64,000 bases of DNA from Hyunsoonleella pacifica. Its GTDB lineage: Bacteria; Bacteroidota; Bacteroidia; Flavobacteriales; Flavobacteriaceae. The notes under the pieces are model-generated. The model made no database searches and was not told the DNA's origin. It worked only from the letters and a program-made list of their open reading frames with translations. This document shows positions 53,450-64,000 of the stretch, in pieces; position 1 is the stretch's first letter, and the number at the start of each line of letters is the position of its first letter. Both the position numbers and the translations under genes were made by a program. The stretch covers positions 434,001 to 498,000 of the forward strand of contig NZ_SIRS01000001.1 of the NCBI RefSeq assembly GCF_004310335.1, written 5' to 3'.

Positions 53450-54838
53450 ATGATTTCAAAAGATACTATTGTAGCATTAGCAACGCCTTCTGGTGCAGGT
53501 GCTATTGCTGTAATTCGTTTATCAGGAAAAAGTGCGATTTATATAGCAGAAAAACAGTTTAAATCTGTATCGGGAAAACTTTTGACTAAGCAGAAGACTC
53601 ACACTATTCACTTAGGACATATTATAGATAACGATATTGTTTTAGATGAGGTTTTAGTATCTCTTTTTAAGAACCCTAATTCTTACACAGGAGAGGATGT
53701 TGTAGAAATCTCATGCCATGGTTCTAATTACATTCAGCAAGAAATTATACAGTTGTTTTTAAGAAAAGGATGTAGAATGGCTAATGCTGGAGAATTTACG
53801 TTGAGAGCTTTTTTAAATGGAAAATTAGACTTAAGTCAAGCAGAAGCAGTAGCAGACCTGATAGCTAGCGATAATGCAGCATCACACCAAATTGCAATGC
53901 AGCAAATGCGTGGAGGGTTTTCTTCTGAAATAGCTAAGTTAAGAGAAGAACTTTTAAATTTTGCATCTTTAATAGAGTTAGAGTTAGATTTTGCAGAAGA
54001 AGATGTGGAATTTGCTGACAGAACTCAGTTTAAAGATTTAGTAGCTCGAATTACATTTGTATTAAAACGCCTTATAGATTCATTTGCAGTTGGTAATGTT
54101 ATAAAAAATGGTATTCCAGTGGCCATTGTAGGAGAACCTAATGTTGGTAAATCAACATTATTAAACGCTTTATTAAATGAAGAACGTGCTATAGTATCTG
54201 AGATTGCGGGAACAACCAGAGACACTATTGAAGATGAAATTTCTATAGGAGGTATAGGGTTTCGTTTTATAGATACGGCAGGTATTAGAGAAACAAAAGA
54301 TATTGTTGAAAGTATTGGAATTAAAAAGACTTTTGAAAAAATAGAGCAATCTCAAGTTACTATATATCTATTTGATGCTAAGAAAAACATTGATAACCTT
54401 AAAGCTGTTTCTGTAGAAATAGAAAAGATAAAAAATAAATACCCCCAAAAACCCCTGTTGGTAATTGCTAATAAAATAGATCAGTTAAATGATATACAAT
54501 TAACCAAGATTAAAAAATATATTACAGATATACTCCTATTATCAGCTAAAACTGGTTTAGGTGTAGAGCAATTAACAGATGCTCTTTTAAATCTTATAAA
54601 TACTGGAGCGCTAAGAAATAACGAAACTATTGTTACAAATTCCCGCCATTACGATGCTCTTTTAAAAGCTTTTGAGGAAATTCAAAAAGTAAAAGAAGGT
54701 TTGGAAACAGGATTGTCAGGTGATTTATTGGCCATTGATATTCGTCAGGCTCTGTATCATTTTGGAGAGATTACAGGAGAGATTACAAATGATGATTTAT
54801 TAGGTAATATATTTGCTAATTTCTGTATTGGGAAGTAA
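53450..54838 (+). CDS. mnmE: tRNA modification GTPase MnmE
   Basis: The 462-residue protein has the N-terminal folate-binding domain (A-L-A-T-P-S-G-A-G-A-I-A-V-I-R) and a central GTPase domain with G-E-P-N-V-G-K-S-T-L-L-N-A-L, D-T-A-G-I-R and N-K-I-D. It ends in the invariant F-C-I-G-K. Together with MnmG it makes the wobble-uridine modification of tRNAs. Its 3' end (54821-54838) is a known integration site in other bacteria, and an accessory island begins just downstream. Confidence 0.97.
   Translation: MISKDTIVALATPSGAGAIAVIRLSGKSAIYIAEKQFKSVSGKLLTKQKTHTIHLGHIIDNDIVLDEVLVSLFKNPNSYTGEDVVEISCHGSNYIQQEIIQLFLRKGCRMANAGEFTLRAFLNGKLDLSQAEAVADLIASDNAASHQIAMQQMRGGFSSEIAKLREELLNFASLIELELDFAEEDVEFADRTQFKDLVARITFVLKRLIDSFAVGNVIKNGIPVAIVGEPNVGKSTLLNALLNEERAIVSEIAGTTRDTIEDEISIGGIGFRFIDTAGIRETKDIVESIGIKKTFEKIEQSQVTIYLFDAKKNIDNLKAVSVEIEKIKNKYPQKPLLVIANKIDQLNDIQLTKIKKYITDILLLSAKTGLGVEQLTDALLNLINTGALRNNETIVTNSRHYDALLKAFEEIQKVKEGLETGLSGDLLAIDIRQALYHFGEITGEITNDDLLGNIFANFCIGK
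54821..54838 (+). other. Candidate integration site (attB-like) at the mnmE 3' end
   Basis: TTCTGTATTGGGAAGTAA, the last 18 bases of mnmE, closely matches the attachment site used by SGI1-family islands in the orthologous gene (trmE/thdF). No second copy is seen in the window. An accessory gene set starts downstream. Use as an attachment site here is inferred. Confidence 0.35.
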
Positions 54839-55229
54839 TGTATCCAATCGTATCAAAAAACACATTCAGGTTTCTTTAGCCCTAAAAGCTTTCATATAGA
54901 AGTCATTTAATTCTTTCTTTTAAACTTAATTCAGTTAATATTTCTTGAGGTTTCCCCTAATACTCATGTCAGTTTTTATATCAATAAAAAATAAGTAGGA
55001 AATTAGAGAGTTTAATACTAATGCATATTATAACAGTTACTTTAGATAAGAAATTATTGAATCTTTAATTCGTTAAATTTTAACTTAAAGCCATAGTTTG
55101 TGGTAAAAAAGGGCAAAGATTTTTTAAATTAAGAAAAAAAGACTATTTTCAATAGGAAATACCTATAAATGAGGATGTTTTTGTTTTTATTAAAAATTTA
55201 GTTTTGATAAAATTAAAAAACTAAAAATT
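54839..55229. other. Intergenic region at the start of the accessory island
   Basis: This 391-base AT-rich gap separates mnmE from the island. I can support no complete gene. A minus-strand stretch around 54900-54970 has short broken frames that could be a decayed gene end, but nothing is recognisable. The last 40 bases before 55230 contain an imperfect inverted repeat of TTTAGTTTT and AAAACTAAA. Confidence 0.55.
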
Positions 55230-55766
55230 ATGCCAAACAATTTCATCGGAACATTTAATTTGAAAAATCAAAATGACAAACAGTTCATTTATTCAAGCCA
55301 ACTTTATGGCACTTTTTTCAACATTTATGCCCAACCAATTTTGAATGAAGACGAAACCAAACTAATGACACTTAGACTTTTTCTAATTAACTATAAGGGC
55401 CATTTAAATCTTGGACTTATGAAAACAGAAAATGAATCGCAGTCAATTGAATTGAATAATGGTAAAATTGAATTCAAGCTTCACGTAAGAGCTTTAGAAC
55501 CTATTAATGGTGAGGAAGATTCTGTTGACTTGGATTTTAATGGAATCCAATTAAATGAAGTTAAGGAGTGGGTGGTTGATAGAGAGTTACACCCAATAGA
55601 AAATGCTTTGAGAAGTAATGGATCTAATCTTAATCAAGTATTTGACACGGAATTTTTTGAGAGAGATGGTGTTTATTTTACAGAAAGGATTAATCCAGAA
55701 AATGAAAAATCTCCTGGGCCAAGATGTAAAACTTCACACATAGAAGTCGTAAACAACAATCCCTAA
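55230..55766 (+). CDS. Hypothetical protein at the island boundary
   Basis: The 178-residue protein has no signal peptide or membrane segment. It looks like a beta-rich domain (N-F-I-G-T-F-N-L-K and Y-G-T-F-F-N-I-Y-A-Q-P-I-L) with an acidic middle and a C-terminal R-C-K-T-S-H motif. It starts the accessory island and lies 24 bases before the histidine kinase gene, so it may be co-transcribed with it. I recognise no family. Confidence 0.75.
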   Translation: MPNNFIGTFNLKNQNDKQFIYSSQLYGTFFNIYAQPILNEDETKLMTLRLFLINYKGHLNLGLMKTENESQSIELNNGKIEFKLHVRALEPINGEEDSVDLDFNGIQLNEVKEWVVDRELHPIENALRSNGSNLNQVFDTEFFERDGVYFTERINPENEKSPGPRCKTSHIEVVNNNP

Positions 55767-55790: not shown

Positions 55791-57671
55791 GTGCATAAAC
55801 AAAGTTATAAATATTTAATTCTAATATTGTTTTATTTAAGGGTTTGCACTTGGCAGATTACTGCTCAGGATAAAATTGACTCGATTTTCATTCTAAAAAA
55901 GAATCTGAATTATGAAAAAGCCATTTCAAAAGTCGAATTGATAGAAGATCCATGGCTTAAGATAAGTATAAAAAATATTCTTTTTTTTGATATAGGTAGG
56001 GAAATGGAAAGTGTAGACATACCTGTAGAGAGTATGGATTTTCAAAAAAGATTTGTTCTAAGTTTAACTAAAGGAAATTTAGAGCTTTTAAAAAAAAAAT
56101 ATGGTAACATAGCAGCATTTGAGTATTTTCTTGAAGCCTATAAAGTAGCGGAAAACTCTAAAAATCGACACTTTCAGAAAGTAGCTCTACTTTACATTTT
56201 AAAAGAACTAAAAGGTCAGGTTTTTTTGGGATCCAATCAATTTGTTGGTTATATAGATGCCTTTAGAAAGGTATCACAGAATACTGAAGATTATGCAATA
56301 TTGAGTCTTAACGAAACAGTCCTCTATTCAAAAGCTAATGACACTCTGGGGTACAATATTCTGGAATATAATAAGTCAATAAGAAAATTAGATTCGGTTT
56401 TTGGCCTCTTGGAAAAGACTAACAATTACTTTCCTTATTATTATCATGAAAAGGGAATTGAAAATAAGTTAAATAAGAATTATGATTCTGCTCAATATTA
56501 CTTTAAAAAAGTAGAATATTTAACCAAGAATAGAGGACAATATCAGGAATTAATGGCCACAAATTATTGGCAAATCTCCGATATGTTTTTACAACAAGGA
56601 AGTCTTGCAGAAACTCAAAAATATAGGCAAATGTCCATTGAAAATGCTATTAGTCTAAGAGACACTTTTTACGATAATAGGTTGGGAGCAGAGTTTTATG
56701 AAAAAAAGCTAAACTTCAAAAAAGCATATGAATATCTAAAAAAGTCTAATAAAAATGAATACGAGTTATCTGCCAAAACTTACTCCTTTATGAGTAATCA
56801 ATTGTCCAGACAATATAGAGAGGAAGCACGGGTCAAATACGATACGGCGAAAAAAGAGGAGCAAATATTTGTTGAACAGCAAAAGTTAAAGGAAAATAGG
56901 AATTGGCTGATCTCTTCGATAATTATTTTTATAATGGGAACTGGAGTTGCTATTTTATTACAAAAAAATACTTCTAAGAAACGTAAGTTGGCAGAACAAG
57001 AAGCTTTATTAAAACAGCAGCGAATTGAAAACCTGATTAAAGAACAAGAACTGGTCAGTATTGACGCGATGATTGAGGGTCAAGAAAAAGAAAGACAAAA
57101 AGTGGCTGGAGAATTACATGACGATTTGGGTAGTTTGATGGCCACAATAAAGTTACATTTTGAAAATGCTGAAGCCAGTAAAAAAGACAAAGCACTTAAA
57201 AAAGTTGAGGGCTTACTTGAGGAAGCTTATCAAAAAATCCGAGGAATGGCACGTAGTAGGAATTCTGGTATGATGAGTGATCAAGGCCTCTTGCAGGCAA
57301 TAAAAAAAATGGCCAAGACCATTACCGAAGCAAATGCTTTGAAGGTTACCGTTGAAGATTTTGGAATGGGTGAGAGAATAGAAAATTCCTTGGAGCTTTC
57401 TGTTTTTCGTATGGTTCAAGAGTTGGTTGCTAATGCTATTAAGCATTCTGAAGCTTCACAAGTTAATATTCAGTTGAGTCAGTATAATGACAACCTGAAT
57501 ATTATTGTTGAAGACAATGGTAAGGGATTTGACCGATCGCAAATGAATAAAAATCACTCAGGAATGGGTTTGACTAATATTGAAAAACGAGTGGAACATT
57601 TAGAAGGTAATTTTACGATAGACAGTATTATTGGTAAAGGAACCTCCATATTAATTGATGTACCTATATGA
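55791..57671 (+). CDS. TPR-containing sensor histidine kinase (NarL-type partner)
   Basis: The 626-residue protein starts at GTG. It has a signal-like segment (residues 7-26) and a TPR-type helical sensor region (about 60-340) expected outside the inner membrane. One membrane helix (372-391) and a coiled coil (395-435) follow. The HisKA_3 segment has the phosphorylated His443 in E-L-H-D-D-L-G-S. The HATPase domain has the N-box around Glu544 and Asn548 and D-N-G-K-G-F at 575-580. This type pairs with LuxR-family response regulators, and one follows with a 4-base ATGA overlap. It presumably senses an envelope signal for the caspase genes downstream. Confidence 0.92.
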   Translation: MHKQSYKYLILILFYLRVCTWQITAQDKIDSIFILKKNLNYEKAISKVELIEDPWLKISIKNILFFDIGREMESVDIPVESMDFQKRFVLSLTKGNLELLKKKYGNIAAFEYFLEAYKVAENSKNRHFQKVALLYILKELKGQVFLGSNQFVGYIDAFRKVSQNTEDYAILSLNETVLYSKANDTLGYNILEYNKSIRKLDSVFGLLEKTNNYFPYYYHEKGIENKLNKNYDSAQYYFKKVEYLTKNRGQYQELMATNYWQISDMFLQQGSLAETQKYRQMSIENAISLRDTFYDNRLGAEFYEKKLNFKKAYEYLKKSNKNEYELSAKTYSFMSNQLSRQYREEARVKYDTAKKEEQIFVEQQKLKENRNWLISSIIIFIMGTGVAILLQKNTSKKRKLAEQEALLKQQRIENLIKEQELVSIDAMIEGQEKERQKVAGELHDDLGSLMATIKLHFENAEASKKDKALKKVEGLLEEAYQKIRGMARSRNSGMMSDQGLLQAIKKMAKTITEANALKVTVEDFGMGERIENSLELSVFRMVQELVANAIKHSEASQVNIQLSQYNDNLNIIVEDNGKGFDRSQMNKNHSGMGLTNIEKRVEHLEGNFTIDSIIGKGTSILIDVPI

Positions 57672-58282
57672 TAACAGTAGCCATAGCAGAAGATCACCAA
57701 GCCTTAATCGATGGTATAGAATCCTATGTAAAATATGAGGACGATATCAAAGTGATTGGTCACGCAAATAATGGAGAAGATCTACTGCGACTGGTTCGGT
57801 TAAAGCAGCCAAAAGTTGTACTCTGTGATATCCGAATGCCTAAGCTAGATGGTATTGAAGCTACCAGAACAATCCTCAAAGAAATGCCATATACCAAGAT
57901 TATTGCATTTACAATGTTTGATCAAGATGACGCTGTGAGACAGATGTTGGAGGCCGGAGCTCAAGGTTATATTCTCAAAAACAGTAGTTTGGAGGTTGTT
58001 CTAGAAGCAATAAGAACTGTAGCTTCTGGAAAGACTTATTTTGACAAAAAAATTAATATGCCTACTGCAGAAAAAAATATATCGAAAAGCATTTTATCTA
58101 CTCGCGAGCAGGAAATTTTACAATTAATTTCGAAAGGATATACTTCTCACCAAATAGCGGACCAACTTTTTATTGGTAAAAGCACAGTAGATACTCATCG
58201 CAAAAATATGATTCGAAAATTGGGACTAAATGGGGCTAACGAATTATTACGTTATGCAATAGAAATGAAATACGACTTTTAA
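57668..58282 (+). CDS. LuxR/NarL family response regulator
   Basis: The 204-residue protein has a receiver domain with acidic residues Glu8 and Asp9, phospho-acceptor Asp54 in L-C-D-I-R-M-P, Thr82 and Lys104. The C-terminal LuxR helix-turn-helix (about 140-195) reads L-S-T-R-E-Q-E-I-L-Q-L-I then S-T-V-D-T-H-R-K-N-M-I-R-K-L-G. It overlaps the kinase gene by 4 bases. A GGGTATACCC palindrome lies 15 bases after its stop and before the caspase gene, a plausible binding site. Confidence 0.95.
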   Translation: MITVAIAEDHQALIDGIESYVKYEDDIKVIGHANNGEDLLRLVRLKQPKVVLCDIRMPKLDGIEATRTILKEMPYTKIIAFTMFDQDDAVRQMLEAGAQGYILKNSSLEVVLEAIRTVASGKTYFDKKINMPTAEKNISKSILSTREQEILQLISKGYTSHQIADQLFIGKSTVDTHRKNMIRKLGLNGANELLRYAIEMKYDF

Positions 58283-58296
58283 AAATCCCTAGAAAT

Positions 58297-58306
58297 GGGT
58301 ATACCC
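58297..58306. promoter_or_regulatory. Candidate response-regulator site upstream of the caspase operon
   Basis: GGGTATACCC is a perfect 10-base palindrome and one of the few G/C-rich symmetries in an AT-rich gap. Its centre is about 36 bases before the transcription start predicted from the element at 58325-58332. That is where an activator would sit. Regulation by the neighbouring LuxR-type protein is inferred. Confidence 0.45.
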
Positions 58307-58324
58307 CAGTAAAGGTTTTTTATA

Positions 58325-58332
58325 AATCTTTG
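58325..58332 (+). promoter_or_regulatory. Near-consensus -7 element for the caspase operon
   Basis: AATCTTTG differs from TAnnTTTG only in the first base. It lies 19 bases before the ATG at 58352. A weak -7 and no clear -33 fit a promoter needing an activator. Confidence 0.4.
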
Positions 58333-58351
58333 AAGCCTTAAACTTAATAAA

Positions 58352-59149
58352 ATGTACAAAGGCTATTCTCTTCACATTGGGGTCAATTCAGTTAATCCAA
58401 AACACTACGGTTCTAACGGTAGATTGTCATGCTGTCAAAATGATGCATTGTATATGCAGTCAATAATGAAAGCAAATGGTTTTCGAACAAAAACGCTATT
58501 AACAGAAAATGCAACAAGAAAAAAAGTAAGTCAGAGTTGGCTCGAATTAGCAAGAAATTCTCAAAAGGGAGACTTTGTAATAATTACTTATTCTGGCCAT
58601 GGAAGTTTTATTCCTGATATGAATGGAGACGAATCAAAAGATGACCAGCGAGATGAAACTTGGTGTTTGTATGACGCTCAATTAGTAGATGATGAGATTT
58701 ATTTGTTGAGTAGTAATTTTAAAGAAGGAGTAAGAGTATTGATTATTACAGATAGTTGTCATAATAAATCGATTTACAAGAATTTTTTAGTTGATGAAGA
58801 TAAAGCTAAAGCTTTCGATGAGGAAAAGTCTATTGAGATATTTGAAAAAAATAAGCCTTTCTATGAGGCTATCCAACAACTTTTGGGGTCAATTGAAAAT
58901 GTTCAATTAAAGTGCGGGCTCGTGACTTTAGCAGCATGTAAAGATGATGAAAAAGCTAAGCCAGGTTTCCCATTAAGTGAGTTTACTCAAAACCTAAAAG
59001 ATGTTTGGAATAATGGGGTATTTAAAGGCGATCACGAAGCTTTAATTGATAAAATAAGGGAGCTGACACCAACAGGGCGTACACCACAAATTTCCTTTGA
59101 AGGAAACCAAGATCACAATTTTATTAAAACTAATCCATTCAAAATTTAA
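58352..59149 (+). CDS. Caspase-like protease (peptidase C14, metacaspase type) 1
   Basis: The 265-residue protein has the caspase fold: an N-terminal strand S-L-H-I-G-V-N, the catalytic His83 in T-Y-S-G-H-G-S and the catalytic Cys136 in I-T-D-S-C-H-N. D-D-Q-R-D-E-T-W-C-L-Y-D between them is typical of type I metacaspases, which cleave after basic residues. There is no signal peptide or added domain, so it is a bare protease. It is the first gene after the response regulator and probably the first gene of a new transcript. The exported protein gene follows 3 bases later. Confidence 0.92.
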   Translation: MYKGYSLHIGVNSVNPKHYGSNGRLSCCQNDALYMQSIMKANGFRTKTLLTENATRKKVSQSWLELARNSQKGDFVIITYSGHGSFIPDMNGDESKDDQRDETWCLYDAQLVDDEIYLLSSNFKEGVRVLIITDSCHNKSIYKNFLVDEDKAKAFDEEKSIEIFEKNKPFYEAIQQLLGSIENVQLKCGLVTLAACKDDEKAKPGFPLSEFTQNLKDVWNNGVFKGDHEALIDKIRELTPTGRTPQISFEGNQDHNFIKTNPFKI

Positions 59150-59152
59150 ACT

Positions 59153-59962
59153 ATGAAAACAAATATCATCAAGTTTGTTATAATTCTAACACTAATTCCA
59201 CTTTTCGTAACGGCGCAAAATGGGGAAATCTATTACTACTTAGATAGCAAAAATAAGGTTCAAAAAATAGAAGTAAATGACGTTAAGGAATCAATAACAT
59301 TAATAGAAAATCCAAAAAGTTTTGGAGCTGCAGCCACTTCAATCTTGCCAGACGCTCTAAAGTTCGGATTGAAGAATCTCTCAAAATTAATTTATAATCC
59401 TAAAAAATATGTTGCGACTTTTGGTTCTGAGGTTAAACTGTTTGAAAAAAGTAATGATTCCTTAATAAATTATTTTGGTCTAAGTGGTTTTACCTACAAA
59501 AAGGTGATAGGTGGTAATGCCTTAGTTCAATTAGATTTTGATATTATCCCACCTTTTGGTAAGGACATCATATACTCAGGAGTTGAATTGCAATCTGTGA
59601 CGCATAATTTCTCTGCTGCAAAACTCAAGAATGGTAGTAAGAACCAAAATATGGTCAATCTCATAGTGGATGTGACTATTTCCTATTTTGATAATAATGG
59701 AGAAAAACAAAAAATTGAATTAAACAGCTATACGCTTAACAATCACCTTCCAAAAAACAGAGGAGCCATAATTTTTGATTCTCCGCAAATGGAAATTTTC
59801 AACTTTAAAAATCTTGCTTTTGTTGAAAGTATTGAGGTAAGGATCACGGAAGTAAATGCAAGAAAAAAATATTGGGACAAGTTATTGGAAGAATATGATA
59901 ACAAAAAAGATAAAATCCAAGAAGCTCTATTAGAGTTAATCAAAAAAGAAGATGAGTCATGA
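59153..59962 (+). CDS. Exported protein of unknown function
   Basis: The 269-residue protein has a signal peptide ending near F-V-T-A-Q-N. The mature part is mostly beta, with an N-terminal hairpin (I-Y-Y-Y-L-D-S-K-N-K-V), and ends in a charged helix rich in Lys and Glu (about 235-269). It begins 3 bases after caspase 1 and overlaps the next gene by 4 bases (ATGA), so it is clearly part of the same operon. No family recognised. A periplasmic partner for the membrane proteins encoded alongside is plausible. Confidence 0.82.
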   Translation: MKTNIIKFVIILTLIPLFVTAQNGEIYYYLDSKNKVQKIEVNDVKESITLIENPKSFGAAATSILPDALKFGLKNLSKLIYNPKKYVATFGSEVKLFEKSNDSLINYFGLSGFTYKKVIGGNALVQLDFDIIPPFGKDIIYSGVELQSVTHNFSAAKLKNGSKNQNMVNLIVDVTISYFDNNGEKQKIELNSYTLNNHLPKNRGAIIFDSPQMEIFNFKNLAFVESIEVRITEVNARKKYWDKLLEEYDNKKDKIQEALLELIKKEDES

Positions 59963-60405
59963 GACGAATAATAAGAAAATCTGATCTAGCTGATTATGAA
60001 TTTAAATCTTTGGATAGTAAAAACTTAAGGGTAAATCCAGATAATCATTTAGATAAAGTTGCAAAACTAGTACCCGCAGAGATTGTTGGAGCTTTTTTGG
60101 CGGTAGATAATTTAATTTTGAGCCAACTGTCTAATGGAACAGATACTTTACACAAATCTGAAATTACATATTGGGTGGTATTTTTCATTTTATTGGTAGC
60201 AACTCCCTTTTATGTAAAGCGAGCCATTTCCTCGGAGTTTAAACTGCTAAAATCACAGATTTTTGTATCTACTTTAGCCTTCGTTTTTTGGGTTTATGCC
60301 ATCGGGGGTCCCTTTAAATTGACAGATATTCATGATTATTTATTTGCAGGTTTGGGCTTAATACTTTTTTCAGTGATCTCACCTTTGTTAATACCCAAAA
60401 AATAA
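59959..60405 (+). CDS. Small membrane protein of the caspase/TIR cluster
   Basis: The 148-residue protein has a basic, soluble N-terminus and an amphipathic helix around K-L-V-P-A-E-I-V-G-A-F-L-A-V-D. Three membrane helices lie near residues 71-88, 99-117 and 126-145. Translation is coupled to the preceding gene by ATGA, and caspase 2 starts 3 bases after the stop. It could anchor or gate the system at the membrane. No family recognised. Confidence 0.8.
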   Translation: MRRIIRKSDLADYEFKSLDSKNLRVNPDNHLDKVAKLVPAEIVGAFLAVDNLILSQLSNGTDTLHKSEITYWVVFFILLVATPFYVKRAISSEFKLLKSQIFVSTLAFVFWVYAIGGPFKLTDIHDYLFAGLGLILFSVISPLLIPKK

Positions 60406-60408
60406 AGA

Positions 60409-61371
60409 ATGATTTCAAAAAAAGCACTTGTTGTAGGGGTAAATTATTACGATAAATTTAACGGACTTTCAGGGTGTGTTAAAGATGCGAATGCTGTGGC
60501 ATCTGCCCTTGAACATAATGATGATGATAAATCTCTTAATTTTTCTATAAATAGAATCATAGCAACAAATTCGGGGAGTATTTTGCGCAAAAAGGCTCTT
60601 GAAGATTCAGTTAAAGCGTTATTTGAAGACGATGTAGATGTCGCACTCTTTTATTTTTCGGGTCATGGCTTTATAAAACCTTCAGGAGGGTATCTGGTTA
60701 CATCAGAATGTAAGGTAGGAGATGAGGGATTGTCGCTTTCAGAATTGCTGTATTACGCCAATGAATCTCCTGCCGACAATAAAATCATAATTTTAGATTG
60801 TTGCCATTCTGGTAAATTGGGATTGGACATTCATGCCAACGATATCGCAAAATTATCAGAGGGTTTAACCATATTATGTTCATCAGCTGAAGACGAGGTT
60901 TCAGTAGAGAAATACGGAAGAGGGGTTTTTACATCACTTTTGGTTGATGCCTTAGAAGGTAGTGCAGCTGATATCTTAGGTAATATTTTCTTAGAAAATT
61001 TATATGCAAATATCTCTCCGGCACTAAGCATTTGGGAACAAACCCCAGTCTGTAGAATTAGTATAAATGGGCTTACTTTAATAAAAAAGACTAAACCTGC
61101 TATAACTATTGCTGATTTGCGAAAAATAGCTGAATTATTCAATGATACCGATGATGAACATCAGCTAGACCCCTCTTACGAACCAGAGAGTAATATGCCA
61201 AATCTAGTAAACACAAAAAAGTTTGGAGTATTGCAAAAGTACAATCGATTAAACCTGGTTGTACCTATTGAAGCCCCACATATGTATCATGCAGCAATAT
61301 GGTCTAAATCTTGCGTATTGACCCCGTTGGGCAGATATTATTGGAAATTGGTTTCAAATAAAAAAATATAG
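60409..61371 (+). CDS. Caspase-like protease (peptidase C14) 2 with conserved C-terminal extension
   Basis: The 320-residue protein has a canonical caspase domain (about 1-215): K-A-L-V-V-G-V-N-Y-Y, catalytic His86 in Y-F-S-G-H-G-F and Cys132 in L-D-C-C-H-S-G. The C-terminal 100 residues contain L-D-P-S-Y-E-P-E, then N-T-K-K-F-G-V-L-Q-K-Y-N-R-L-N-L-V-V-P and C-V-L-T-P-L-G-R-Y-Y-W. I recall similar extensions on caspases in other bacteria with conflict systems. It is distinct from caspase 1, so the two are not recent duplicates. It starts 3 bases after the membrane protein and ends 2 bases before the next gene. Confidence 0.92.
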   Translation: MISKKALVVGVNYYDKFNGLSGCVKDANAVASALEHNDDDKSLNFSINRIIATNSGSILRKKALEDSVKALFEDDVDVALFYFSGHGFIKPSGGYLVTSECKVGDEGLSLSELLYYANESPADNKIIILDCCHSGKLGLDIHANDIAKLSEGLTILCSSAEDEVSVEKYGRGVFTSLLVDALEGSAADILGNIFLENLYANISPALSIWEQTPVCRISINGLTLIKKTKPAITIADLRKIAELFNDTDDEHQLDPSYEPESNMPNLVNTKKFGVLQKYNRLNLVVPIEAPHMYHAAIWSKSCVLTPLGRYYWKLVSNKKI

Positions 61372-61373
61372 CT

Positions 61374-61904
61374 ATGAGTGATTCCTCCCAATTATGGAAT
61401 GAATTCGAGAAAGACTCCATATATGTTGAAAACAAAGAATTGTACCAAGCCCATATTTTAGAGCAGTACAAGATGTACACCGAAATGGCCGATCGCATTA
61501 GTCAGAGAAGGAATTCGACTAATGTGTTTTTTTTAAGCTTAAGTACTTCTTTAATTACTGGATTAGGTTTCGCCTTGGCTAACCAAGATAAATATTCTTA
61601 TTACATTCCCATTCTCCTTGCTTGTCTCGGGCTTGTAATCTGTATTGCCTGGTGGTGGATTTTACGATCCTATAGAAATTTAAATTCTGCTAAATTCAAA
61701 GTTGTAGGTCAACTAGAAGAAAGACTCCCTTCAAGCCCATATTGGTCTGCTGAGTGGAAAGAATTGGGCGAAGGCAAATCACTAAAAAAATACTTGCCTT
61801 TGAGCAAATTAGAGCAGTTTGTACCATTGATATTCCTCATATTCTATTTATGTGTTTTTGTGAAAAGTCTATTTGACGAAAACTTTTTTAAAGATATTAT
61901 CTAA
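61374..61904 (+). CDS. RipA/8xMP-like octameric membrane protein
   Basis: The 176-residue protein has the pattern E-Q-Y-K-M-Y-T-E-M-A-D-R-I-S-Q-R-R-N-S-T-N just before its first membrane helix (about 50-68). Further helices are near 76-96 and 147-165, with P-Y-W-S-A-E-W-K-E-L-G-E-G-K between them. This resembles the RipA-family (8xMP) membrane proteins often found near defence genes. It probably assembles into a membrane ring. It follows caspase 2 by 2 bases and precedes the TIR gene by 55 bases. Confidence 0.78.
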   Translation: MSDSSQLWNEFEKDSIYVENKELYQAHILEQYKMYTEMADRISQRRNSTNVFFLSLSTSLITGLGFALANQDKYSYYIPILLACLGLVICIAWWWILRSYRNLNSAKFKVVGQLEERLPSSPYWSAEWKELGEGKSLKKYLPLSKLEQFVPLIFLIFYLCVFVKSLFDENFFKDII

Positions 61905-61959
61905 TTAATAGTTATAATTGGATGAATTCCATTGAATTAAAATTTTATTTGACTCATCG

Positions 61960-64000
61960 ATGAAGTTCTCATTTAAGAAATTTTTGTTTGGCCATGATGT
62001 TTTCATATCCTACTCTCGAAAAGATACTAGCGATTATGCAGCGGCTTTGGTTAATGAACTTACTAAAAAGAAAATAGAGTGCTTTATAGATCAACATGGA
62101 ACCGAACCTGGCGAAGATCTTCCCAGTAATCTTAAAAGAACTCTGTTAAGATGTGACTTTTTTGTTCTCCTTGGTTCTGATAATGCCTTGAAATCAGAAG
62201 CAGTATTAGAAGAAGTTGTTTTATTCAAAAACCAAAGAAATAAAAGACCAATTATTCCCGTCGACTTTGGTTCACTAGAAGATGCAGATTGGTTCGATGA
62301 AATTAGGGGTTTAGCTCTCGCAAAAGAAAATTCAGACGCCTTAATGCTAGGACAGCCCTCAGAGAAAATTGTCAAAAGGATTTTAGATACCATTGGTTTT
62401 AATACTAAGAATTCTAGACTTCGAAAATTAACTTATTTAACGATAACGGCTATATTATTTGGTCTCTTAGTTGCATTTTTTACATTTAATTCTTTTCAAA
62501 AAATCATTGAACAATCGAAACATACTATTGGTAAATTAAATACTGAATCAGATTCATTGTTAAATTCAATTGAAATAGGAGAAAACCGAATAAGGGATAT
62601 TGAGAAATTGGCTCAAGCTACCCAAAAAAGAGCTGACCGTGCAACGAGATTGGAAGAGTTAGCAAAAAAGAGTTTGCAAGAAGTTCGAACGACCCTCAAA
62701 AAAAACCAATTTGAATTGGACTTGAGTCAAGCTATAAATGAATTTCGTAATGGCGAGGAACAACTTGTCAAATCAGATGTCTTTTATGCTGAATATACAT
62801 TTGAAAAAGTTTATGAAGAATTTACCCGTATTGAAATGAATCCAATTATTATAAAGCATGCTTTGGCTGCTACAGAGGCCGGTATGTTGGGTAGCAATAT
62901 AATTACCACTCTTCAACCGGCGGTATCATATATATTCTTATCAGAAAACGAAAAGAAAATATTAATTGTTTATGATCACCAGAATTTTGGAGGGAATCCA
63001 GAATTAGAAGGTATTCAAGATTGGACTTCATTTGAAGTTATTGATTTGCAGACAGGTGAACGATTTATCGAAAAAGAAATTGGATCAGAAGTTGGGGCAT
63101 TCATATATTCTGGCCTTCACAGATCTGAGATTGCCGAGTTTAAAGATTCAGGAGAAGAACTTTTACTTATTCAAAACGATACAGTATTTTATGAATATTC
63201 TTTAATTACAGGAATACGAAAAGAGGTTGAGAAATCGAATGAATATAGTAAAATTGAAAATAATTATTTGAAATTTCCAAACCCAAAAGAAAGTAGAGAT
63301 TCCATTCTAGTCAACAACGAATTGGATGATGACAATCTATATAGAACTCACCCAGATGATGGTATAGACGTAGAATATGGTCGTAGATTAGTCGATCATG
63401 TAATTGTTGAATCGCCAGATGGACGAATAATTTTTGCAGGCACCTATGAAGGTAGAATGCTGGTTCTTGATACAGCTACCGGTTTTAAAAGAGGTGAGAT
63501 GCAAGGTAAGCCAGTATTTGCGGCACAATTTGCTGCAGATGGAAAATCAGTATTTGTTGCCGATGAAGGGAATCTGTGGCAAATTGATACGTCAAGCTTG
63601 AATTCGGTCAATGATTTTTCACTAGACTTAGTGGAAAGAGGTAAATATAGTTGGAAAAATGAAAAGCTTTTAGATGTTAGAATTGCTAATGATGGCACTG
63701 CTTTGGTGGTAATAACTACGGACAGAATAAGGGTTCTAAGATTGAATTTAGGTGAATGGGTTGAATGGTATTTACCTCAATTAATAAAAGAGGTTTCTTG
63801 TTTAAGAATAAATCCTGTTCAAAATGAAGTTCATTTCATTTCAGGAAAAGGCATCATTTTCTGTTATAATTACTCTAAGAATAAGGGAATCTATGATATG
63901 GAATTTTATAGCCCTGAAGATTCTGAATTTATAAGCTGGATTGATAAAGGAAAAAAAATGGTATGGTTGGCTGAAAAAAAAATTTACAACAATCAAATAA
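61960..64000 (+). CDS. TIR domain - transmembrane - coiled coil - beta-propeller protein, 3' truncated by window edge
   Basis: An ATG at 61960 opens a frame that stays open to the window end (680 codons). A TGA at 61933 rules out an upstream start. Residues 12-145 form a TIR domain: H-D-V-F-I-S-Y-S-R-K-D, then E-C-F-I-D-Q, and S-E-A-V-L-E-E-V-V-L-F holding the likely catalytic Glu. A membrane helix (about 157-177) and a coiled coil (about 180-245) follow. From about residue 320 there are WD40-like blades, for example S-P-D-G-R-I-I-F-A-G-T-Y-E-G-R-M-L-V-L-D-T-A-T-G. TIR domains of this kind cleave NAD or make signalling nucleotides. With two caspases encoded upstream, it may be the sensor or signal maker of the cluster. 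Confidence 0.9.
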   Translation, partial: MKFSFKKFLFGHDVFISYSRKDTSDYAAALVNELTKKKIECFIDQHGTEPGEDLPSNLKRTLLRCDFFVLLGSDNALKSEAVLEEVVLFKNQRNKRPIIPVDFGSLEDADWFDEIRGLALAKENSDALMLGQPSEKIVKRILDTIGFNTKNSRLRKLTYLTITAILFGLLVAFFTFNSFQKIIEQSKHTIGKLNTESDSLLNSIEIGENRIRDIEKLAQATQKRADRATRLEELAKKSLQEVRTTLKKNQFELDLSQAINEFRNGEEQLVKSDVFYAEYTFEKVYEEFTRIEMNPIIIKHALAATEAGMLGSNIITTLQPAVSYIFLSENEKKILIVYDHQNFGGNPELEGIQDWTSFEVIDLQTGERFIEKEIGSEVGAFIYSGLHRSEIAEFKDSGEELLLIQNDTVFYEYSLITGIRKEVEKSNEYSKIENNYLKFPNPKESRDSILVNNELDDDNLYRTHPDDGIDVEYGRRLVDHVIVESPDGRIIFAGTYEGRMLVLDTATGFKRGEMQGKPVFAAQFAADGKSVFVADEGNLWQIDTSSLNSVNDFSLDLVERGKYSWKNEKLLDVRIANDGTALVVITTDRIRVLRLNLGEWVEWYLPQLIKEVSCLRINPVQNEVHFISGKGIIFCYNYSKNKGIYDMEFYSPEDSEFISWIDKGKKMVWLAEKKIYNNQI

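Follow-up and report, generated by a model that had tools for sequence, protein, structure and literature searches.

The genome of Hyunsoonleella pacifica (4.13 Mb, 34 contigs) contains a gene island in which a histidine kinase (HK) and a response regulator (RR) stand ahead of two caspases, a TIR protein and several membrane or exported proteins. We analyzed this island in a window of 64,000 nucleotides (NCBI RefSeq assembly GCF_004310335.1, contig NZ_SIRS01000001.1, positions 434,001 to 498,000 of the forward strand), whose positions 55,791 to 64,000 had been described in an initial annotation as a candidate caspase/TIR immune or cell-death system controlled by a two-component system (TCS). 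Our results suggested that the island is an inducible immune or cell-death regulon under a dedicated two-component switch, a reading that we consider likely, though well short of certain. An operator-like 18-bp inverted repeat is found before the TCS operon, before the caspase operon and before a convergent TIR/Zorya-like operon past the window end, each time with a putative promoter element at the same distance. The TIR-caspase core is of a known kind; the modular two-component switch with readable operator sites is what appears to be new.

Two-component system and operator-like sites

Open reading frames were called mechanically by a helper script, and all cluster frames were confirmed on the + strand. 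The features are as follows (window positions; L003 and L004 are stretches reaching past the window end).

55159..55176, +, RR operator-like inverted repeat, one mismatch to ATMCCYANNNATGGGKAT, at the promoter of the 178-aa gene/HK/RR operon
55199..55206, +, -7 element TAGTTTTG, at +22 from the site 55159..55176
55230..55766, +, gene of a 178-aa protein ("tail protein"), adjoining the HK gene; no family match and no signal peptide
55791..57671, +, sensor HK, GTG start; HisKA_3 and HATPase (Pfam)
57668..58282, +, RR; REC (D54) and LuxR/GerE (Pfam)
58285..58302, +, RR operator-like inverted repeat ATCCCTAGAAATGGGTAT, at the promoter of the caspase operon
58325..58332, +, -7-like element AATCTTTG, at +22 from the site 58285..58302
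58352..59149, +, caspase 1 (casp1), Peptidase_C14 (Pfam), H83/C136
59153..59962, +, exported protein of 269 aa, no family
59959..60405, +, membrane protein of 148 aa, three predicted transmembrane (TM) segments, no family
60409..61371, +, caspase 2 (casp2), Peptidase_C14 and a conserved C-terminal part of about 100 aa, H86/C132; TIR-linked family
61374..61904, +, 8xMP membrane protein (PF24838; Pfam E 2.9e-46)
61960..64000, +, TIR-TM protein, TIR_2 (Pfam) with a long C-terminal part, cut at the window end (full length 897 aa, to L003 11653)
L003 11660-15265, past the window end, DUF4062-nSTAND1-TM-LRR gene (1201 aa), continuing the operon after the TIR gene
L003:15405-20000 to L004:26-3084, -, past the window end, convergent operon of TIR2, an 853-aa protein, SPFH/Band_7, ZorA-like and ZorB-like proteins

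A HisKA_3 and HATPase kinase beside a REC-LuxR regulator is the classical arrangement of a NarL/LuxR-type TCS. The kinase has a signal-peptide-like N-terminal segment, a predicted periplasmic sensor and one TM segment, and its phospho-acceptor motif LHDD starts at 442, which places the acceptor at His443. The tail protein carries a Cys near its C-terminus (C166), which was invariant across 38 aligned sequences. From casp1 to 8xMP the genes are separated by 3 bp, an ATGA overlap, 3 bp and 2 bp, and a gap of 55 bp separates 8xMP from the TIR gene. Gene order, frames, strand and this tight spacing were as the initial annotation had given them. The Pfam matches likewise bore out its naming of the kinase, the regulator, the two caspases, the 8xMP protein and the TIR protein. 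Two details did not hold. The kinase had been called a TPR sensor kinase, and no Pfam TPR match was found in it (TPR_12 is present in the relative L023). The TIR-membrane protein had been given a propeller, for which the sole match was a sub-threshold one to Beta-prop_EML_2 (E 0.05). The cluster had also been drawn too narrowly on both sides, as the 178-aa gene upstream and the DUF4062-nSTAND1-LRR gene downstream belong to it, and the convergent operon with the same kind of site had been missed.

Among 248 other genomes of the family, relatives of casp1 adjoin an RR with 69-70% identity to that of the window twice (G179 and G211). The genome collection was scanned with these three RRs. From 187 relatives, 80 loci (61-85% identity) were kept and examined together with the window, making 81 loci in which the genes flanking the kinase-RR core differ from locus to locus. 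In the 140 bp after the RR genes an 18-bp inverted repeat, ATMCCY-N6-RGGKAT, was seen to recur. It was searched with the pattern AT[AC]CC[CT]-N-[AG]GG[GT]AT, all matches being 18 bp long. The repeat was found within 140 bp after the RR in 47 of the 81 loci, from whose post-RR sequences the pattern had been drawn by eye, and, in 49/77, in the 250 bp ahead of the operon. Elsewhere, 56 sites were found in 1.556 Mb, a background of 0.005 per 140 bp. Almost all sites were intergenic (142/153). As a control, seven other RR neighbourhoods of the same genome (12 kb each) gave neither a site nor a match to four protease hidden Markov models (HMMs; 0/7); for the trypsin and papain-like HMMs such an in/out contrast is partly circular, because the operons themselves supplied the clusters from which these HMMs were made. 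The Pfam protease assignments are independent of this, although for the c3 (trypsin-like) and c5 (papain-like) groups they fall short of the Pfam cut-offs.

The sites also keep a fixed distance to a promoter element. The sequence TAnnTTTG is the -7 element of Bacteroidetes promoters. We selected 114 site-gene pairs at a distance of 20-110 bp. The start codon lay 45-64 bp from the site in 79 of them, and TTTG stood exactly at +26 in 63. For TAnnTTTG itself, 21 of the 22 occurrences fell exactly at +22, versus about 1.3 at the best offset of shuffled sequences. In the window, two places matched at no more than two mismatches in 64 kb, with a chance expectation of 0.58 matches. A third site lies about 12 kb past the window end; TIR2 of the convergent operon starts 49 bp after it, and TACATTAG stands at +22. 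Operator-like repeats at target promoters are the second mark of a NarL/LuxR-type TCS, here as far as sequence can tell. As sites precede its own operon, casp1 and TIR2, the RR is probably the direct switch of its own, the caspase and the TIR/Zorya-like operons. The dedicated TCS that had been proposed for the caspase/TIR operon thus appeared well supported by the sites at both promoters, the fixed -7 spacing and the recurrence in L058 (below). With an 18-bp site and a fixed -7 spacing, further members of the regulon can be looked for by sequence alone. At L058:10642, L061:10644, L070:10648 and other loci, the RR site forms a strong hairpin followed by a T run, and for that reason the same DNA may be both the terminator of the TCS operon and the operator of the next one.

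Caspases, TIR proteins and the convergent operon in relatives

The exact set of eight genes was not found together elsewhere; a large part of it recurs in L058, an uncultured Flavobacteriaceae metagenome-assembled genome with a TCS of the same clade. One arm of this locus reads tail protein, HK, RR, a small membrane protein, casp1 (38% identity), casp2 (55%), 8xMP (63%) and a CAP12-type TIR. The other, divergent arm reads TIR2, 853-aa protein, SPFH, ZorA and ZorB, and sites are found between the arms and after the RR. Two genomes thus keep both arms together with a single TCS clade, in differing arrangements.

In the convergent operon of the window genome, PADLOC identified a ZorA-like MotA/ExbB protein and a ZorB-like OmpA protein, the motor pair of Zorya. 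ZorC, D, E, F and G gave no PADLOC match among the five proteins of this operon (the SPFH protein entered the scan as a 709-aa reading, whose first residues may be missing). The operon may be a variant of Zorya with TIR and SPFH proteins, and it recurs in L058. No match to the 853-aa protein was found in the 248 other family genomes. An 886-aa protein of L159 was considered as a relative of the 853-aa protein and ruled out (E 0.33); its SPFH-like neighbour is weakly related (E 5e-05).

Relatives of casp1 (E <= 1e-3) occurred in 14 of the 248 genomes, mostly in other contexts. Its H83/C136 had been named as catalytic residues, correctly so, since both were invariant in seven aligned proteins. 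Further caspases of the regulon were found at L075, L076, L084 and L090; those at L070 and L117 (divergent) and at L069 (nearby) were not counted as regulon-linked. On the kinase+RR tree of 69 rows, the caspase label sits on seven rows (L070 and L117 included) and needs six changes, that is, caspase linkage is scattered over the backbone tree. At L063 a gene led by a site contains a Trypco2 domain, and the caspase with EAD11 at L070 is divergent to the module.

The casp2 family is linked to TIR genes. Over its full length casp2 was found at four further places in three of the 248 genomes, and 25 of them gave some match, mostly to the protease domain only. A TIR gene lies within a few genes in all six casp2 loci (window, L058 and L159-L162), as expected from the TIR-caspase link that the initial annotation had drawn. 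The TIR kinds differ: ThsB_TIR at L160 and L161, TIR_2 at L159, L162 and the window, and CAP12-type at L058. This nearby TIR gene in 6/6 loci suggests a type IV Thoeris-like core. The catalytic His/Cys dyad is kept, with H86 and C131/C132 invariant in the six sequences, in agreement with the H86/C132 pair named before. A PDB profile search with casp2 returned MALT1 and metacaspases only. The TIR HMM used on the RR loci was narrow and misses the CAP12-type TIR of L058; with it, TIR was found in only 2/81 RR loci, both with casp2.

In one genome (G179), the casp2+TIR operons at L159:5983-15045 and L162:8315-13304 each stand behind an HK-RR pair of another clade (34-39% identity). Two-component systems thus appear to have been recruited repeatedly by the casp2 family. 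8xMP was considered as a constant caspase partner and did not prove to be one: it exceeded the curated cut-off in 5/249 genomes, and the four outside our genome had no caspase HMM match in the stretch listed. At L165:7702-8966 a ThsB_TIR gene adjoins an 8xMP gene, with no caspase match in the stretch listed, and 8xMP itself may be a TIR-linked effector there. For the exported protein, one weak BLAST match was found in the RR loci (L077, 24%), which phmmer did not bear out.

Exchange of sensor, tail protein and protease

A complete kinase with a small protein gene directly upstream was present in 69 of the 81 loci. The other 12, including the fused L046 and the caspase locus L076, had no complete HK or no small gene directly upstream and were dropped. 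Mean identity was 0.63 in the kinase part and 0.70 in the RR, but as low as 0.21 in the sensor and 0.17 in the tail protein. Sensor similarity followed tail similarity (rho 0.38), also after kinase and RR were partialled out (0.36; 0/500 permutations), and was related to kinase similarity at 0.16 only.

The tail C-terminus occurs in two types, sorted by eye after an automatic rule had left 13/69 ambiguous: Cys followed mostly by 6-9 residues (46 rows) and Gly followed by short hydrophobic residues (23 rows). The nearest sensor neighbour shares the tail type in 69/69 rows, versus 57/69 for the nearest backbone neighbour. Kinase length tracked the tail type in all 69 rows as well (Gly 580-603 aa, Cys 608-659 aa), and 7/7 independent pairs on starred branches agreed (sign test 0.016). 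Sensor and tail protein are thus exchanged together on a conserved kinase-RR backbone. A contact between the two is inferred, since linkage alone could carry both together. Several kinases (L038-L117) look chimeric, in that closely related kinase+RR backbones differ in their sensor and tail types, e.g. L039 versus L041 and L044. The difference between L039 and L041/L044 reads as a natural sensor swap. As one kinase backbone accepts exchanged sensors, tails and proteases, the clade offers a natural experiment on how a sensor comes by a new input.

A protease often belongs to the same cassette. In 28/69 loci the tail gene is preceded within 60 bp by a gene on the same strand, which encodes a protease (trypsin-like, subtilase, papain/C39-like or caspase) in 24 of the 28. 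On the backbone tree the protease classes show a scattered distribution, with 14 changes versus a mean of 14.9 after shuffling. In L046 the tail protein is fused to the upstream protease, the only such case. Trypsin-like loci were Gly-type in 10/13, and the subtilase and papain-like rows of the tree were all Cys-type. By a crude hydropathy rule, a signal-peptide-like start was called in 65/69 kinases and 15/69 tail proteins, and a protease stood directly upstream of 1/15 exported-looking tails versus 23/54 others (Fisher p 0.013). We searched for a known fold of the tail protein: Pfam and NCBIfam were empty for the window protein, and the best E in a PDB profile search was 0.97. One tail relative gave a weak match to the MACPF beta-prism, below the cut-off (E 0.0047).

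These observations would fit a plug-and-play immune switch, in which a constant kinase-RR backbone takes interchangeable protease+tail+sensor cassettes and effector operons, and the tail C-terminus is the ligand of the periplasmic sensor. Most tails look cytosolic and the sensor is periplasmic, so the tail could be seen only once it is exported, cleaved loose or freed by lysing kin. We regard this extended reading as speculative and rather doubtful. If it is true, the tail would serve bacteria as a danger signal, readying caspase/TIR immunity before an infection begins.

Proposed mechanism, rival readings and known systems

In the mechanism we propose, an outside or envelope signal would be read by the periplasmic sensor and lead to a phosphorylated RR. 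This NarL-type regulator would bind the 18-bp inverted repeat and activate three promoters, namely those of tail protein-HK-RR, of casp1-exported-membrane-casp2-8xMP-TIR-nSTAND1 and of the convergent TIR-853-aa-SPFH-ZorA/ZorB-like operon. To judge from the protein families and the TIR linkage, the TIR protein may sense invasion and make a nucleotide signal that activates casp2, as N7-cADPR made by the TIR does for the caspase of type IV Thoeris. casp1, 8xMP and the nSTAND protein would act as co-effectors, and proteolysis, membrane damage or growth arrest would follow, conceivably killing the cell and holding off a phage. The Zorya-like motor, nSTAND1, casp1 and 8xMP may be further effectors or sensors. 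The tail protein, given its co-variation with the sensor, may be a partner of the kinase sensor domain. The overall interpretation of the initial annotation was in this way partly supported, the defence role being what the gene families point to. Such a regulon would allow a direct test of the signal by which a suicide-type defence is switched on before infection.

Several observations weigh against the regulon. In the own genome, the loose pattern matched 8 places versus 4 for a reversed control; the eight include the casp1 site, the TIR2 site and one beside a second TCS copy (L122), and the other five are near chance. Because of the way in which the pattern was drawn, the count of 47/81 is not independent, in contrast to the sites upstream, the -7 spacing and the third site. 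As repeats the sites are imperfect, and a search for inverted arms of at least 7 did not list them; the sampled loci also share descent. Within the regulon, any of the four protease folds is present at only 29/81 loci. Among the neighbouring or regulated genes, many do not resemble defence genes (DUF7103, DUF5723, an outer-membrane barrel, a cadherin-metalloprotease); the downstream gene at L077 is DXP synthase, and the gene behind the RR is therefore not always part of the regulon. casp2 reached 86.9 of the 140 bits required by NF047832, the sole NCBIfam caspase it matched, and four of the six casp2 loci are without a site of the RR clade. The exported protein had one weak partial match in the 248 other family genomes, and the 148-aa membrane protein had no match in the RR loci.

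A rival reading takes the TCS clade as a general contact or envelope-stress switch, whose regulated cassettes of proteases, secreted proteins and membrane proteins serve surface quality control, predation or competition and behind whose active promoter caspase and TIR genes were captured by chance. At many loci the downstream genes are indeed without defence homology, and behind the second TCS copy of the same genome there is just a small secreted gene. However, chance capture accords poorly with caspases that recur on 7/69 backbone rows by six changes, and with TIR2/Zorya-like and caspase operons that both bear sites in two genomes with differing gene order. The Trypco2 domain in a site-led gene speaks against it too, as does the divergent EAD11 caspase of L070, which was not counted as regulon-linked. 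We think this explanation unlikely, but deserving of attention. We give about the same weight to the possibility that the tail protein is a substrate of the neighbouring protease and acts like a gasdermin. A cut near its C-terminal motif would yield either a short peptide or an N-terminal part that is active, while the kinase would do no more than set expression; this is compatible with the regulon. The protease next upstream in 24/28 loci, the L046 fusion and the leaning of tail type with protease type all favour such a substrate. Bacterial gasdermin operons carry a similar range of proteases, a likeness that counts in its favour as well. Yet the tail motif is kept where no protease adjoins and where the protein looks exported, the tail type matches the sensor type (69/69) more tightly than the protease type, and no significant fold match was found for the tail protein in the Pfam and PDB searches.

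It is improbable that the island is a mere gathering of functionally unconnected neighbours, in which a type IV Thoeris-like casp2/TIR pair, casp1, the TCS and the nSTAND gene came to lie side by side. Such a gathering could account for the casp2/TIR loci L159-L162, which lack this TCS clade, and for the differing distributions of the casp1, exported and membrane genes. It sits badly with the near-zero spacing, the site before casp1 and the reappearance of TCS, casp1, casp2, 8xMP and TIR in L058. Two of the four other casp2 loci also stand behind an HK-RR pair, although of a different clade.

The relevant passages of PMC12847820, citing Rousset et al. 2025, present type IV Thoeris as a signal-and-effector pair of TIR and caspase-like protease. 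The island resembles it in having a TIR gene and a caspase-like protease in one operon, as do L058 and L159-L162, in the kept His/Cys dyad, and in the ThsB_TIR-family gene at two of the six TIR-linked casp2 loci. It differs in its TIR, which is a large membrane protein, in its two caspases, 8xMP, nSTAND1 and exported partners, and in its TCS with operator-like sites. We do not claim membership of type IV Thoeris; the likeness is one of gene families and linkage.

Conflict systems with effector-associated domains (EADs) have caspase, trypsin-like and TIR effectors as variable parts, and Trypco2 at L063 and EAD11 at L070 are further likenesses. The constant part here, in contrast, is a complete HK-RR pair. 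EAD models gave no match in casp1 or casp2, so that neither is an effector fused to an EAD, and the L070 caspase was alone among the proteins scanned in having EAD11. In what PMC7159879 and PMC8195603 say of such systems, vWA-associated effectors come without histidine kinases, and receiver domains are independent of kinases. One regulator pair ahead of diverse immune operons also recalls CapK/CapS, CapW and CapH/CapP. According to the pertinent parts of PMC13373217, CapK/CapS is found in front of immune operons of many kinds, of which 12 are type IV Thoeris, and is an HTH-STAS-GHKL kinase that acts on a repressor upon DNA damage, whereas the island has an HK with a periplasmic sensor, a NarL-type regulator and interchangeable sensors. 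The convergent arm shares ZorA-like and ZorB-like proteins with Zorya and differs in that SPFH, 853-aa and TIR proteins stand where the effectors ZorC+ZorD, ZorE or ZorF+ZorG would be. In searches of an open-access collection, preprints excluded, we found no precedent for a TCS with caspase, Thoeris or EADs, for TCS, caspase and phage defence together, or for caspase/TIR immunity controlled by a TCS with operator sites.

The 3' end of the mnmE-like gene (window 53450-54838) was examined for an attachment-site duplication downstream of the island, with no exact 14-20-base match in the 35 kb read, and the GC content of the island (0.327 versus 0.32) is not anomalous. The island is bordered by this mnmE-like gene on one side and on the other by genes resembling non-ribosomal peptide synthetases (L004:3377-14153, judged by eye with no family search). 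The second module copy of the own genome (L183:8136-11527, G000:C12) has an RR of 59% identity, an HK of 613 aa and a lipoprotein-like tail protein of neither clear type, with the small secreted gene behind. Next to this copy lies a gene of 128 aa. Many loci of Aquimarina, Kordia and Winogradskyella likewise have a gene of roughly 128 aa beside the module, so the module may originally have been located here.

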